This document shows, in pieces, positions 2,271 to 37,250 of a stretch of 64,000 nt of DNA. The notes beneath the pieces were generated by a model. That model was given only the letters and a program-made list of their open reading frames with translations, was not told where the DNA came from and ran no database searches. A program made the translations under genes and the position numbers. Position 1 is the stretch's first letter, and each line of letters starts with the position of its first letter. Source of the stretch: Myxococcales bacterium FL481 (GTDB lineage: Bacteria; Myxococcota_A; Polyangia; Nannocystales; Nannocystaceae); assembly GCA_006508105.1 (NCBI GenBank), contig QKPP01000105.1, positions 1 to 64,000 on the forward strand, read 5' to 3'.

Positions 2271-4040
2271 GTGCTCTCCGCCGCTGTCAGAAAACCGTTC
2301 ATCGCCGGGGTGATCGGTGCCGTCGTCGGCAGCGTCAGCCCGACGGTTGACGGCGCGACACGTGGTCCTCAGCTGCAAGTCGACGGCGTGGCACGAGAGG
2401 TTCGGATCGACATCCCCCTCCCGCCCAAGTCGCCGACGCCCACGGCGGTACCGCTGCCCGGCGGCCACGCGCTGGAGATCGACTTGCCGGTCGCGCGGGA
2501 CGTCGTCGAGCGCGCGCTGGCCCGGGTGCCGACCTCGTTCGCCACGCGGCTGCAGTCCGTGTCGACCGGCACGCGACTGCGCATCGTCCACTCGGGACGG
2601 CGGCTTCGGTTCGTCGAGGGCCGCCGGCGCAACACCTACAGCCTGGCCACGGGGTCGGAATCGGAGGACACGCGCCTGCGGGAGATGGCCACCGAAGTGC
2701 GCCACCCCCTACCCCAACCGCGGAACCTGGGCGCCCACTTGGAGCTGTGGCAGGAAGCGGAGCGGGCCACGGCTCGCGCCGACCTCAAGCAGGCGATGCG
2801 CTTGTGGGAAAAACTGGCCGACGAACACAGCCTGCGCGACCTCGCGGGACTGCGGATCGCCGAGTTGTACGTGATCAGCGGCCACATCGAGCAGGCCACG
2901 GAGTTGCTGCGCCAAGTGTCGCGCGAGTATCCGCGATCGTCGGGCGCGGCGTTGGCCCGCCTCGACGCGCTGCGATTGGAAGTGATCACGCAACAAGGCT
3001 CTCCCACGGCCGAACAGGTGGTCATCGCCGCCATGTCGGGAAACCGCCAGCGCTTTGAACCGTTCGCGTGGCTGCGAGCGACCCGCGTGTTGATCGAATT
3101 GGACGCGGCTGACGTCGCCCTCCACAACTTCCCACTCCTAGAGCAACTTCCGGCCCACGTGCGTGACGACGCGAAAGCGGCCCGTGACGCGTTGGTCAGC
3201 ACGGCGATCGGCATCCCGGCCGCCGCTGACCGACCATTCGACACAGTGGTCCAGTATCGGGCCTGGTCGGACTACCTCCGGGACCACCCCGAGGTGGACA
3301 CAATCCGACGCCTCGTGGCGGAGGCCCATCTTGCCATCGGCCTGTTCGAGCACGCCATTCCCTTGTTCCGCTTGGCTCTAGGGAAATCGGGGTCGGAGAC
3401 AGGCGAGGCCGCGACCATCTCCGCACTGGCCGATGCCTATCTCGGCGCGGAGGACCTGCCGCACGCCCTGGAGGTCGTACGGTTTCAGATCGCCAACTAT
3501 CCCCGTGCCCCGGATCTGCCGGCCCGCGTCCTCGCTTTGGCCTTGTTGTCGCGCGAGCAGCAAAACGTGGCCTCAGCGCGGGAGTTGCTGACAAACCTGC
3601 GCGATCAGGCCAAAAATCGCGCCCTCAAGCGCGCCGTGGTCGGCATCGAAGTCGACTTCGCCCTGGCCTGGGGCACGGCAAAAGAACAAGTCGCGTTGCT
3701 CGACACGATGCGAGGTATCGGCTTCGACGACGACCGGAAACGCGGCTCCCAACTCGCGATGGCCCTCGCTCGCGATGGTCGATTCCCTCGGGCAGTGCCA
3801 CTGCTACGCGCCCAGATCGGGCGAGCGACCGACCCCGAGCTCCGCGACGAGATGACGTACCTGCTGGCTCGCGCGGAAGCGGAGCTGGGGCACAAAGATG
3901 ATGCCCGCAAACTACTCGAATCGATTGCGACGCACTCAACTCACTGGGGGCTTGTCGCCCGGTCACGACTGCGCGAGCGCACGCTCACTGACTTGGTCGC
4001 GCACGTCGAGCGCAGGAACAACTCGCGCCGCGAAAACTAG
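2271..4040 (+). CDS. Secreted TPR-repeat protein with N-terminal beta-rich domain, first gene of flgBC-fliE operon
   Basis: ORF 2253-4040; the TTG at 2253 lies in the -12 element so GTG 2271 (or 2310) is more likely; hydrophobic N-terminal segment; helical repeats typical of TPR. Confidence 0.7.
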   Translation: MLSAAVRKPFIAGVIGAVVGSVSPTVDGATRGPQLQVDGVAREVRIDIPLPPKSPTPTAVPLPGGHALEIDLPVARDVVERALARVPTSFATRLQSVSTGTRLRIVHSGRRLRFVEGRRRNTYSLATGSESEDTRLREMATEVRHPLPQPRNLGAHLELWQEAERATARADLKQAMRLWEKLADEHSLRDLAGLRIAELYVISGHIEQATELLRQVSREYPRSSGAALARLDALRLEVITQQGSPTAEQVVIAAMSGNRQRFEPFAWLRATRVLIELDAADVALHNFPLLEQLPAHVRDDAKAARDALVSTAIGIPAAADRPFDTVVQYRAWSDYLRDHPEVDTIRRLVAEAHLAIGLFEHAIPLFRLALGKSGSETGEAATISALADAYLGAEDLPHALEVVRFQIANYPRAPDLPARVLALALLSREQQNVASARELLTNLRDQAKNRALKRAVVGIEVDFALAWGTAKEQVALLDTMRGIGFDDDRKRGSQLAMALARDGRFPRAVPLLRAQIGRATDPELRDEMTYLLARAEAELGHKDDARKLLESIATHSTHWGLVARSRLRERTLTDLVAHVERRNNSRREN

Positions 4041-32283: not shown

Positions 32284-33657
32284 ATGGCCAGCATCAACGG
32301 CATCTTGGACACGGGACGGAGCGCCATCTTGGCGCACCAAGGCGCGATCTCGACGACGTCGCGCAACACGGCCAATGTCAACACGCCTGGGTACCACCGA
32401 CGCGACGTGGTGCTGTCCAATATCAAAAGCCTCCCGGGGGTACAGGTCGAGGAGCGTCGCCGCAGCAGCGACGCCTACCTCGGACGCAAAATACTCGAAG
32501 CCCACGGTGCCTTGGGATCGGCCGAGGCCCAAGCCCCCTCCCTCGGTGCGGTGCAGCAGTTGTTCGCCGACCGCGACGGAGGCCTCGGCACCAGCGTCGA
32601 CGCCTTCTTCAACGCCCTTCGTGCCCTGGAAGCGTCGCCGATGAACCTCGATCTGCGACGCGATGTGGCCAGCACCGGGACGACGATGGCGGACCAGATC
32701 TCGGCTACGGCCCAGTCCCTCGCGCTCGAACGCCGGCAGGCCGACCGCATCGTCGATGGCATGATCGCCCGGGTCAATGAGCTGACCGCGACGATCGCCG
32801 ACCTCAACCACCAAATCGCCAACACGCCCCAAGAGGCCGACGGCTTGTACGACCAGCGCCAACTGATGGCCAACGAGCTCGCCTCGTACATCGACGTGCA
32901 TACGTTCATCCGTGAGCCCGGCCAGATGGTGGTCCTGTTCGCCGACGGGATGAACTTGGTCGACAAGGATTTCGCAGCGACCTTGACCGCGACCCCCGAC
33001 CCGGCCTACAGCGATATGCGACGGGTCGACTTCACGGGCAACGGCGGCAATCCGGTCGATGTCACCGATCGCCTCGAGTCCGGTCAGTTGGGCGGTGTGG
33101 TCAAACTGCGCGATCAGGTCATCACCACGCTCATCGATCGCATCGACCAGTACGCGTACGACTTCATCACCGAATTCAACACTCGCCACCAAGCGGGCTT
33201 CGGCACCGATGGCGCGACGGGTCGCGATTTCTTTGATCCGCCGCTAACTGGCGTCTCGGACGCCGCCTCGGGCATGTCGGTCATGACCGGGATCAGCACG
33301 AACCCAGCTTGGATCGCCGCCTCCAGTTCCGCCGCCGAGGCGGTAGGCGGCAACGGCAACATCGCCAACCTGCAAGTCCTCGAACGCCAGCCACTCGCGG
33401 CCGGAGGCACGCGATCGTTCGTCGAAGAGATGGCCGATATGCTCGGAACGGTGGGGCGAATCGTGCAAAGCAACGAACGCGACAGGCAATCCGCCACCGT
33501 CGAACTCGAACAGCTCGAGTCGCTGCATTCCTCACAAGTCGGCGTGGCCATCGATGAGGAGATGATCGATCTGACCCGATTCCAACGCGGCTACCAAGCC
33601 GGCGCTCGTATCGTGACGACCGTCGACGAGATGTACCAGACCATATTGGGGATGTGA
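32284..33657 (+). CDS. flgK: Flagellar hook-associated protein FlgK
   Basis: ILDTGRSAILAHQGAISTTSRNTANVNTPGYHRRDVVL; FQRGYQAGARIVTTVDEMYQTIL. Confidence 0.95.
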   Translation: MASINGILDTGRSAILAHQGAISTTSRNTANVNTPGYHRRDVVLSNIKSLPGVQVEERRRSSDAYLGRKILEAHGALGSAEAQAPSLGAVQQLFADRDGGLGTSVDAFFNALRALEASPMNLDLRRDVASTGTTMADQISATAQSLALERRQADRIVDGMIARVNELTATIADLNHQIANTPQEADGLYDQRQLMANELASYIDVHTFIREPGQMVVLFADGMNLVDKDFAATLTATPDPAYSDMRRVDFTGNGGNPVDVTDRLESGQLGGVVKLRDQVITTLIDRIDQYAYDFITEFNTRHQAGFGTDGATGRDFFDPPLTGVSDAASGMSVMTGISTNPAWIAASSSAAEAVGGNGNIANLQVLERQPLAAGGTRSFVEEMADMLGTVGRIVQSNERDRQSATVELEQLESLHSSQVGVAIDEEMIDLTRFQRGYQAGARIVTTVDEMYQTILGM

Positions 33658-34559
33658 TGCGTGTCACCGAAATCAGACTCCATCAGTTGGGCTCCACGTC
33701 GATTCGCGACGCTCGCGAGCGGCTCATGGAAGCCCAACGCGTCGCGGTCTCGGGCGCTCGGGTCAACGAGCTGTCCGACGATCCGGCCTCGGCCGCGCGC
33801 GCGCGGCTGGCCCGATCGCTGATGCACCAGGCCGAAAGCCACCAGCGCAGCATCGAACTGGGGAACCTTCAGCTCGAGCGCGCAGAGCAAGCCCTCAGTG
33901 AGGTGTCGAACCTGCTCGTGCGAGCCAAAGAACTGACGTTGGCCATGGCCAACGAAACGATCACCGCATCCCAGCGCTCACTCGCAGCGCAAGAGATCAA
34001 CGAGCTTCGCCTCACGGCGATCGACTTGGCCAACACCAAGGCTGGCAACGAGTACGTGTTCGCCCACGTGAACACGACCAGTCCGCCGGTCGACGCCGCG
34101 GGCACGTTTACCTACGACGTCAACACCTACCAGACCGTCCGCGAGGCCGAAGTCGGCCCCTCGTCACGGGCCGAGATCGGGTCCTCCGCCAGCCTCGCGT
34201 TTGCCCAGCGCGTGGCCGACCCGGGCAGCATCGATGTTTTCGTGGCGCTGTCCGACCTTGTCGCCGATCTCAACGCCAATGATCCCGACGCCGTTCGAGC
34301 GGCGGTCGATGACCTCGACTCGGCGCACGATCAGGTCGTGGCCGAGCGCGCCCGCATCGGGCTACGCACGTCGCGGTTGACCACGGCCCAGGAAACGGCC
34401 ACTGCGGCCCAGGACGTGTACCGCCAGCTCGAATCCGACCTCGTCGACGCCGATGCCGCCGAAGCGTTTTCGTACCTCAACCTGGCCGAAACCGGTCTGC
34501 AGGCCTCACTCGCGGTTACCTCCCGAATCCTTGGCCCTAGCCTGCTCGACATGATGTAG
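33657..34559 (+). CDS. flgL: Flagellar hook-associated protein FlgL
   Basis: Flagellin-like N and C termini following flgK. Confidence 0.92.
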   Translation: MRVTEIRLHQLGSTSIRDARERLMEAQRVAVSGARVNELSDDPASAARARLARSLMHQAESHQRSIELGNLQLERAEQALSEVSNLLVRAKELTLAMANETITASQRSLAAQEINELRLTAIDLANTKAGNEYVFAHVNTTSPPVDAAGTFTYDVNTYQTVREAEVGPSSRAEIGSSASLAFAQRVADPGSIDVFVALSDLVADLNANDPDAVRAAVDDLDSAHDQVVAERARIGLRTSRLTTAQETATAAQDVYRQLESDLVDADAAEAFSYLNLAETGLQASLAVTSRILGPSLLDMM

Positions 34560-34679
34560 TCCGTTCCTGGTGTAAATGTCCGATCAAACGACGTCCCGTG
34601 CCGCGGAGCTTGCACGAAGGTTGATCGCGCACAATAGAGTCTACTGGACGCTGGCATGACAGCACACGCCCGGAAACAA

Positions 34680-34702
34680 GACGAGGCTCAGCAGGCCTCG
34701 TC
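34680..34702 (+). promoter_or_regulatory. Hairpin in csrA leader
   Basis: GACGAGGC-tcagcag-GCCTCGTC immediately upstream of AAGGAGGG SD. Confidence 0.6.
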
Positions 34703-34725
34703 ATCAAGCCAAGGAGGGCATACCG

Positions 34726-34995
34726 ATGCTCACGCTGACCAGGAAGGCCGGCCAGAAGATTCGAATCGGGGACCGCATCGAGATCGTGGTCCGGGAGATT
34801 CGGGGTCGTCAGGTTCGGTTGGGAATCACGGCCCCGGAGGGGCTACCGGTGTACCGCGAAGAGCTCTACCAGCAGATCGCGCAGGAGAACTCGAGAGCGG
34901 CCCAGAGCGTGGATCTGGACGCGCTGACGGAGCTCAGCGGACCGTCAACACCACCCGCTTCGGACTCGTCGAAATCCCCGAAGACCGAATCGTGA
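34726..34995 (+). CDS. csrA: Carbon storage regulator CsrA
   Basis: MLTLTRKAGQKIRIGDRIEIVVREIRGRQVRLGITAPEGLPVYREELY; strong SD AAGGAGGG. Confidence 0.97.
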   Translation: MLTLTRKAGQKIRIGDRIEIVVREIRGRQVRLGITAPEGLPVYREELYQQIAQENSRAAQSVDLDALTELSGPSTPPASDSSKSPKTES

Positions 34996-35369
34996 CCATG
35001 CCACTGGGCATCCCCGGGTTCGTGCAAGCGCAAGAGTTCTTCTTGCTCGATCACCGCCCGGGCTCGATGTTCCGTTGGCTCCAGTGCGTCAATCTTCCCG
35101 AACTCGCGTTCGTGGTCGTCGACCCCCTCACCGCGATTCCCGACTATCCGGTCGACCTCGTCCGCCGCTCGGTCAACTTTTTGGACCTAGACCCGGACGA
35201 AGACATGATCGTCCTCGCTATTTGCACCGTACCGCCGGCCCCCGAACCGCCGACCCTGAACTTGCTAGCCCCGATCGGCATCGGGCTGACGTCACGGCGC
35301 GGGGCTCAAGTGGTGTTGCACGAAACGGGCTTCGGCCCCCGCGAAGAGTTCTTGCCCCCGCGGCCTTAG
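34944..35369 (+). CDS. fliW: Flagellar assembly factor FliW (start codon unresolved)
   Basis: TTRFGLVEIPEDRIVTMPLGIPGFVQAQEFFLLDH...; conserved region begins inside csrA in another frame; open frame extends to ATG 34656. Confidence 0.88.
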   Translation, partial: VNTTRFGLVEIPEDRIVTMPLGIPGFVQAQEFFLLDHRPGSMFRWLQCVNLPELAFVVVDPLTAIPDYPVDLVRRSVNFLDLDPDEDMIVLAICTVPPAPEPPTLNLLAPIGIGLTSRRGAQVVLHETGFGPREEFLPPRP

Positions 35370-35378
35370 GTCCACATC

Positions 35379-37250
35379 ATGGCCGATCTGCCCGAGCCGA
35401 TCCGTCTGCAGCAACTGTTCGCCCGCGATCGGGACGGCCTCGACGCCCTGCTCCAACAACAAGTCAGCGAGCGCGTGTCCACCACCGACACCCCGCACGG
35501 CCCCGTGATCTCCGTCGACGGCCGCAAGTTGCACAGCACCCGAGATCCGTGTCGTGAGGCGCGACGATTCGTCCGCAACGTCGACCTCGGCGAGTCCACG
35601 ATGGTGATCTTGCTGGGATTGGGCAGCGGCCACGTTGCGCGCGCCATCGCACACCAAACCAGCGCGCGCTTGGTGGTGTTCGAGCCCGACCTCGAGGCGC
35701 TGGCCGTGGGTCTCGGTCACGGTCCGCTGCCGCCCAACACCCAGATCCTCACCACGCCACGGCGCTTGGGCTCGGCCCTGTACGCGCAGCTTACGTCGTC
35801 TGACCGCGGGCTGATTTTGGTCTGGCGCCCTTGCGCTCGGCAAGCTCCCCTCGCCTACCGCAACGCGGCGCGGGAGGCCCGACTGGCGATCGAACGCGCC
35901 CGGTTTCGGGATATCACGACGCAGGTTCGCATTGAAGGCTGGCTGGATTTCTACCTCGACAATTTGCCCCAGCTGTTGCGGGGACCCGGGCTGGACAAGC
36001 TGCGAGGCAAGCTTACCGGCGTGCCGGCGTTTATCTGCGCGGCGGGACCCAGCCTAGACAAAAACATCGCGCAGCTACGCCAAGTTCAAGACAATGCGTT
36101 GATCCTTGCCGTCAACACGGCCGCGTCGGCGCTCGCCGCCGCCGGGGTCCAGCCCCACGCGATCGTCTCGGTGGAGTCGTTGGACATTACCCAGCAACTG
36201 GCCGGCCTGCCTTGGCTCTCAGAGATCGCCGCCTTCTTGGAACTCACTGGCAACCCAGCCATGTTCGATCTCCCGGTGCGCCGCGTGCTACCGATCTCTG
36301 TCGACACCAGCACTTGCTCGCGGTTCACCGCGGCGCTAGCCGGCGGGCAGGACTTCAGCGGGGGCTTTTGCGTGGCGAATACTGCTACTGCACTCGCTCA
36401 AGCGATGGGCTGCCGTCCCCTGGTTTTGGTCGGGCAAGACCTCGCGTACGCGGGGGACCGCGTGTACGCCGAGGGCACGATGTTCGAGGATGTACGCATC
36501 GACGTCGCCGACGGCGTCGGCGAGCTGCGCAATTTCGAGAGCAAGCGAGCGATCGAACGCGGGTCACAAGGCTCGCTCAAGGCCGGGGTGCGCCAGGCCA
36601 CTTCGTTTCGCACCGACGTGGTTCCGGGATGGGGCGGCGGCCCCGACGTCGTCTCCCCCGCCGACTTTCAGCTGTTCCGGGATTGGTATGCCCACTCGGC
36701 CGAGACGCTGCGTGACCATGGGATCCGTCCGATCAACGCCACCGAGGGCGGCGCCAGCATCGACGGGTGGGACGAAGTCCCACTGGCGGAGGTCATCGAC
36801 ACGTACCGGCTCGCCGAGCCCCGCCCGGACGAGCCCAGCGTCGGTCAGCGATTCAAGGCAATGACCAGTGTTGACGGTCTCGACCGGGACGCGTTGGTCG
36901 CCGCGGTGCAAGCCGAGCGCGAGGTCATCGCCACCATGCTGCGGCTGGGTCTCGAGGCGAGGGCCCTGGTCGACCACGACCCCGACGGCGACCTCAATGC
37001 CCCCCTCGAGGTCTCGACTCGCCTCGCCACGATCAATCAAGATGTCTCCGCGCTGCTTCGGCGGGGGCCGCTGTGTACGGAAGCGTTGACCGTACCGCTG
37101 GATCTCCTGCGAGATCGCCAAGAACTCAACACCGTGTCGATGCACCAGGTCATCGAGCAACACCTCGAGCGCCTCGACGAACGGCTCGAAGCGGTCCTCA
37201 ATCGTCTCGATGGTTCGACGTCAAGGCCTTCGCTCGACAAGAGCGCTTGA
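35379..37250 (+). CDS. Motility-associated factor (Maf/DUF115) glycosyltransferase, putative flagellin glycosylation
   Basis: PAFICAAGPSLDKNIAQLRQVQDNALILAVNTAASALAAAGVQPHAIVSVE; next to flagellins. Confidence 0.85.
   Translation: MADLPEPIRLQQLFARDRDGLDALLQQQVSERVSTTDTPHGPVISVDGRKLHSTRDPCREARRFVRNVDLGESTMVILLGLGSGHVARAIAHQTSARLVVFEPDLEALAVGLGHGPLPPNTQILTTPRRLGSALYAQLTSSDRGLILVWRPCARQAPLAYRNAAREARLAIERARFRDITTQVRIEGWLDFYLDNLPQLLRGPGLDKLRGKLTGVPAFICAAGPSLDKNIAQLRQVQDNALILAVNTAASALAAAGVQPHAIVSVESLDITQQLAGLPWLSEIAAFLELTGNPAMFDLPVRRVLPISVDTSTCSRFTAALAGGQDFSGGFCVANTATALAQAMGCRPLVLVGQDLAYAGDRVYAEGTMFEDVRIDVADGVGELRNFESKRAIERGSQGSLKAGVRQATSFRTDVVPGWGGGPDVVSPADFQLFRDWYAHSAETLRDHGIRPINATEGGASIDGWDEVPLAEVIDTYRLAEPRPDEPSVGQRFKAMTSVDGLDRDALVAAVQAEREVIATMLRLGLEARALVDHDPDGDLNAPLEVSTRLATINQDVSALLRRGPLCTEALTVPLDLLRDRQELNTVSMHQVIEQHLERLDERLEAVLNRLDGSTSRPSLDKSA

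Follow-up and report, generated by a model that had tools for sequence, protein, structure and literature searches.

The closest precedent for the arrangement described here appears to be the rpmH/rnpA pair of Thermus (Feltens et al. 2003), in which rpmH is nested in rnpA and which has been described as unique among bacteria in its type of start-site overlap (PMC9841429). In that pair, a small upstream gene lies wholly within its N-terminally extended neighbor, on the same strand, in another frame and on one mRNA, as csrA appears to lie within fliW here. The two Thermus AUGs are 1 nt apart behind one shared Shine–Dalgarno sequence, and expression of that pair has been demonstrated (PMC9841429), whereas here the starts are 52–70 nt apart, csrA has a Shine–Dalgarno of its own and the nesting of csrA in fliW is predicted from sequence. 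Unlike rpmH and rnpA, moreover, csrA encodes a regulator and fliW its antagonist. In Bacillus subtilis, where the fliW and csrA frames also overlap, translation of csrA is dependent on that of fliW and the FliW:CsrA ratio is critical (PMC6529632). The gene order in that species is fliW–csrA, with a terminal overlap (PMC6529632); in our case csrA sits entirely inside fliW, and the conserved FliW domain is encoded 3' of the csrA core. The comS gene within srfAB of B. subtilis is likewise an out-of-frame nested regulatory gene but, unlike csrA/fliW, it is a small gene in a synthetase gene and has no antagonist relation to its host (PMC8160284). Finally, ordinary csrA–fliW pairs with ATGA or GTGA junctions (for example L010 and L020) have the same genes in the same order, but their fliW has a canonical start no more than ~12 nt from the conserved strand, and csrA ends at or about that start. 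Long same-strand nesting of two genes of known function is, to our knowledge, very rare in bacteria, and the literature searched gave no report of csrA/fliW nesting, of FliW with Myxococcota or of FliW with overlapping genes and reading frames.

The DNA studied (the window) is a 64,000-nt stretch of contig QKPP01000105.1 from the draft genome (322 contigs) of Myxococcales bacterium FL481 (Nannocystaceae, Myxococcota), and its relevant features are listed in Table 1. Profile searches identified csrA (PF02599, E = 1.7e-22, 79.5 bits compared to a curated cut-off of 27; NCBIfam PRK01712, 75.5 compared to 73) and FliW (PF02623, 92.6 bits compared to a curated cut-off of 25), with the PF02623 domain match itself starting only after FliW strand 2. 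FliW is encoded in the -1 frame relative to csrA, and this frame runs without interruption from 34638 up to its stop codon at 35367–35369, so that csrA (34726–34995) lies inside the long fliW ORF (34656–35369) on the same strand and in another frame, as it does in ten loci of the family. Based on the neighboring flgK, flgL-like and Maf/MptE-like genes, and on three flagellin-like genes 2–5 kb downstream, the pair is in a normal flagellar setting. Scanning for sigma-70 promoters and searching Rfam gave no match, and no relatives were present in a viral collection.

Table 1 Features of the csrA/fliW locus and its surroundings (positions in the window)
Feature	Position	Strand	Remarks
fliW long ORF, 237 aa	34656..35369	+	ATG start at 34656, TAG stop; ~90-residue disordered N-terminal tail (predicted) and FliW domain
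csrA, 89 aa	34726..34995	+	Wholly within the fliW ORF in another frame; FliW strands 1–2 are encoded across its final ~55 nt
Pre-csrA part of fliW ORF, 70 nt	34656..34725	+	Equivalent segment is 52–70 nt in ten family loci
csrA Shine–Dalgarno AAGGAGG	34711..34717	+	Inside the fliW coding sequence; duplex energy -11.4 kcal/mol
FliW strand 1, residues 94–99	34935..34952	+	Encoded in the csrA tail; no start codon nearby
FliW strand 2, residues 103–108	34962..34979	+	Likewise within the csrA tail
GTGA	34992..34995	+	csrA stop TGA overlaps an in-frame fliW GTG; candidate start of a truncated FliW (rival reading)
8-bp hairpin	34680..34702	+	Between the fliW start and the csrA Shine–Dalgarno
flgK	32284..33657	+	Context
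flgL-like flagellin-domain protein	33654..34559	+	Context
MptE-like/Maf-type motility-associated gene	35379..37250	+	Context

The original prediction held that fliW has no canonical start codon for its conserved N terminus, which overlaps csrA in the -1 frame, and that in-frame ATG, GTG or TTG codons ahead of the conserved core are limited to ATG 34656, followed by GTG 34992 and ATG 34998. The list of codons was borne out, and the start was found to be missing in seven relatives from the family as well. Between the csrA start and the FliW anchor, the fliW frame of the window contained no ATG, GTG or TTG, and the ~75 codons that end 9 nt beyond the anchor, counted from the csrA start, included none of the near-cognates CTG, ATT, ATC, ATA, ACG, AAG or AGG. 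Starting at GTG 34992 or ATG 34998 had been expected to cost a conserved strand; based on the predicted fold, it would remove both strands 1 and 2 (residues 94–99 and 103–108; pLDDT ~87–92).

To place this in context, we collected FliW loci from the window's own order, class and phylum and from a named species-wide collection, and in the 154 distinct loci that include the N-terminal part we sought a start from -60 to +9 of the conserved anchor. The relatives are all draft genomes, and the named ones are MAGs (Nannocystaceae, Myxococcales or Deltaproteobacteria). A start was present in 145 loci, most commonly 6 nt ahead of the anchor, and missing in nine. Eight of these nine belong to Nannocystaceae, comprising the window and seven further genomes from four genera in all, with two genomes of a fifth genus being similar; the ninth (L017) comes from another family of the same class. 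An ordinary ATG just before the TRFG strand, which a comparison of junctions in relatives might have revealed, is thus the rule for FliW outside the family but not within it. Only in Nannocystaceae does csrA extend 28–52 nt beyond the FliW anchor, compared with an end at +5 or before elsewhere. Across the family relatives the TRFG strand is retained and the anchor codon is GTC, ATC, TTC or CTC, or GTG in genus g10. The absence of a start near the FliW strand is therefore a real family trait, beyond chance.

All ten family loci carry an ATG or GTG in the fliW frame at 52, 55, 58, 67 or 70 nt before csrA, with no stop until FliW. Among 45 control csrA genes with comparable GC3, only one showed the same combination of upstream start and open frame (Fisher P = 4e-10 without correction for kinship; 3e-6 by our own arithmetic when five genera are set against the 45). 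In genera g5 and g10, DNA identity is 82–91% inward from the upstream start compared to 17–65% in the preceding 60 nt, and the proteins open with MTKRE, MSKRE or MSTRE. Ribosome-binding signals are less uniform. The upstream start of genus g11 is a GTG with a good Shine–Dalgarno (-5.7 and -11.4 kcal/mol), compared to a weak one in the window (-3.4 kcal/mol) and pairing near zero in genera g2 and g5. This weakness in the window, g2 and g5 appears to be the main soft spot of a fliW start upstream of csrA.

Outside the family, locus L017 has an ATG preceded by GAGGAG at -237 to the anchor, 22 nt before a TTG-started csrA, with the fliW frame open; the sole alternative start for its FliW is a CTG overlapping the csrA stop. 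The GAGGAG was judged by eye, and the Shine–Dalgarno energies above were computed without this locus. L017 may thus represent another instance of nesting.

Constraint on csrA from the fliW frame was assessed from the upstream-start comparison above together with paired substitution tests, in which the silent csrA changes of five independent species pairs were replaced by random draws from a codon pool. The observed silent changes gave no fliW-frame stop in any of the five pairs (null chance 0.21–0.56 each, product ~0.005) and were conservative in the fliW frame (combined P = 0.014). By comparison, 16 control pairs matched the null (P = 0.52), and 8 of the 16 carried a fliW-frame stop. These results are moderate evidence that the fliW frame constrains silent sites of csrA, and they weakly suggest a preference for conservative fliW-frame changes. 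The -1 frame over csrA was open in 10/10 family loci compared to 24/42 controls (P = 0.008, uncorrected for kinship), but openness alone is weak evidence because this frame is often open in such GC-rich genomes. Two other measures were not retained. Wobble sites of csrA in the overlap group evolve only slightly more slowly than in controls, and the difference is indecisive as a sign of dual coding; a codon-usage model of stop chance (0.12–0.34 per gene) was set aside, as it overstates stops and the -1 frame over csrA was open in more than half of the controls anyway.

In the predicted fold of the 237-aa protein, residues 94–108 lie within the FliW barrel and residues 1–90 are disordered. A Foldseek comparison of this model to 5dmd, 5jak and 5dmb gave E values of ~1e-11 to 1e-12 and TM scores (by target) of 0.86–0.88, and solved FliW structures match the long protein by sequence as well as by fold. 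The FliW fold is thus predicted to be complete, including its N-terminal strands.

We consider it probable that fliW starts at ATG 34656 and that its ~237-aa protein is dual-coded over csrA, with csrA fully nested out of frame. The original prediction had listed such an extension without preferring it, alongside non-AUG initiation, a -1 frameshift and a sequencing error. Only the extension gained support, from the upstream start, the open frame and the substitutions. A sequencing or assembly error concealing an ordinary start might be suspected in a draft of 322 contigs, but the arrangement recurs in eight distinct genomes from four genera and several studies, and we reject this option as having a negligible chance of being correct. 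Non-AUG initiation shortly before the conserved strand, coupled to csrA, is strongly disfavored and very improbable: genus g5 does have ATC at the anchor codon and L017 the CTG noted above, but the window lacks any near-cognate over the stretch searched and none is conserved among genera, while the GTC/ATC/TTC/CTC series at the anchor follows the pattern of a hydrophobic strand residue, unlike a start. In genus g10, the GTG at the anchor could serve as a FliW start, which counts against the nested arrangement in that genus.

Two further readings are unlikely. A -1 ribosomal frameshift in csrA would yield a CsrA–FliW fusion and would fit the constant -1 relation of the genes in ten loci, the extension of csrA past the FliW start and the in-frame CsrA–FliW fusion ORFs known from Nitrospirae MAGs. 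However, the earlier statement that no classic slippery heptamer is present holds for the window and for all ten family sequences (strict X_XXY_YYZ in 0/10), no relaxed site is shared near the junction, and a frameshift leaves unexplained the upstream start codon, the conservation step there, and the open frame and stop avoidance over csrA; we therefore disfavor it and regard it as unlikely. Alternatively, FliW could lack strands 1–2 and start at GTG 34992, coupled to the end of csrA through the GTGA overlap. The overlap exists in the window, the PF02623 match begins past strand 2 in any case, and genus g8 (L016 and L018) appears to use such a start, with L016 still matching PF02623. Yet, of the ten loci, the window alone has a GTG at the csrA stop, with relatives having CTG, GTA or ATA at a position shifting from +25 to +49, and R6, F7, G8 and P13 are invariant in the fliW frame of the family although they would be untranslated with this start. 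The motif has moreover decayed in g8, where the start truly moved, unlike in the start-less family loci. A start at GTG 34992 is accordingly quite improbable.

With the preferred start at ATG 34656, fliW translation would begin 70 nt before csrA and run through it in the -1 frame, and csrA would start inside fliW from its own strong Shine–Dalgarno on the same mRNA, so that ribosomes translating fliW would cross the csrA start region. The ancestral pair would have had the usual ATGA/GTGA junction, where one mutation could remove both the fliW start and the csrA stop because they share bases. We infer that such a change removed the two together and that an upstream open frame then rescued FliW, whose survival would have required an uninterrupted frame leading back to a further start.

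The two genes encode a regulator and the protein that antagonizes it, the ratio of which matters in B. subtilis (PMC6529632), and by analogy it is plausible that linking the two translation starts on a single mRNA helps to set the CsrA:FliW ratio. More tentatively, and with less chance of being right, FliW translation through the csrA ribosome-binding site and start may directly gate CsrA initiation, and CsrA bound to leader GGA could feed back on both genes; the overlap would then be a device for setting the ratio and the disordered tail its by-product. GGA motifs lie at 34646–34648 and 34713–34715, around both starts, and with the hairpin between them (Table 1) CsrA autoregulation is possible. 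A hairpin with a GGGA loop also lies ahead of csrA in L004. The arrangement has been kept over five genera of one family, and automated gene calling will probably yield a truncated FliW in such genomes.

Natural controls are available in a paralogue and in a genus that left the arrangement. In the FliW tree, Nannocystaceae form one group (moderate support), with the start-less state spread over its main branches. Genome G021 carries two csrA–fliW pairs, one nested and start-less (L005) and one with an ordinary GTGA junction (L020), and the latter falls inside genus g5. L020 and genus g8 have a proper GTGA fliW start, and the -1 frame over csrA is interrupted by stops in L016 and L020. In g8, where the TRFG strand is decayed, FliW seems to restart at the csrA GTGA without the first conserved strands.

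A different arrangement was observed in the Nitrospirae MAGs, in which CsrA and FliW share one frame with no intervening stop (L096, positions 2755–3453; L100; L101). The L096 ORF spans 233 codons with both Pfam domains over cut-off, and the CsrA part of these ORFs begins at ATT with no ATG, GTG or TTG upstream. The three loci possibly represent an in-frame CsrA–FliW fusion with an ATT start.
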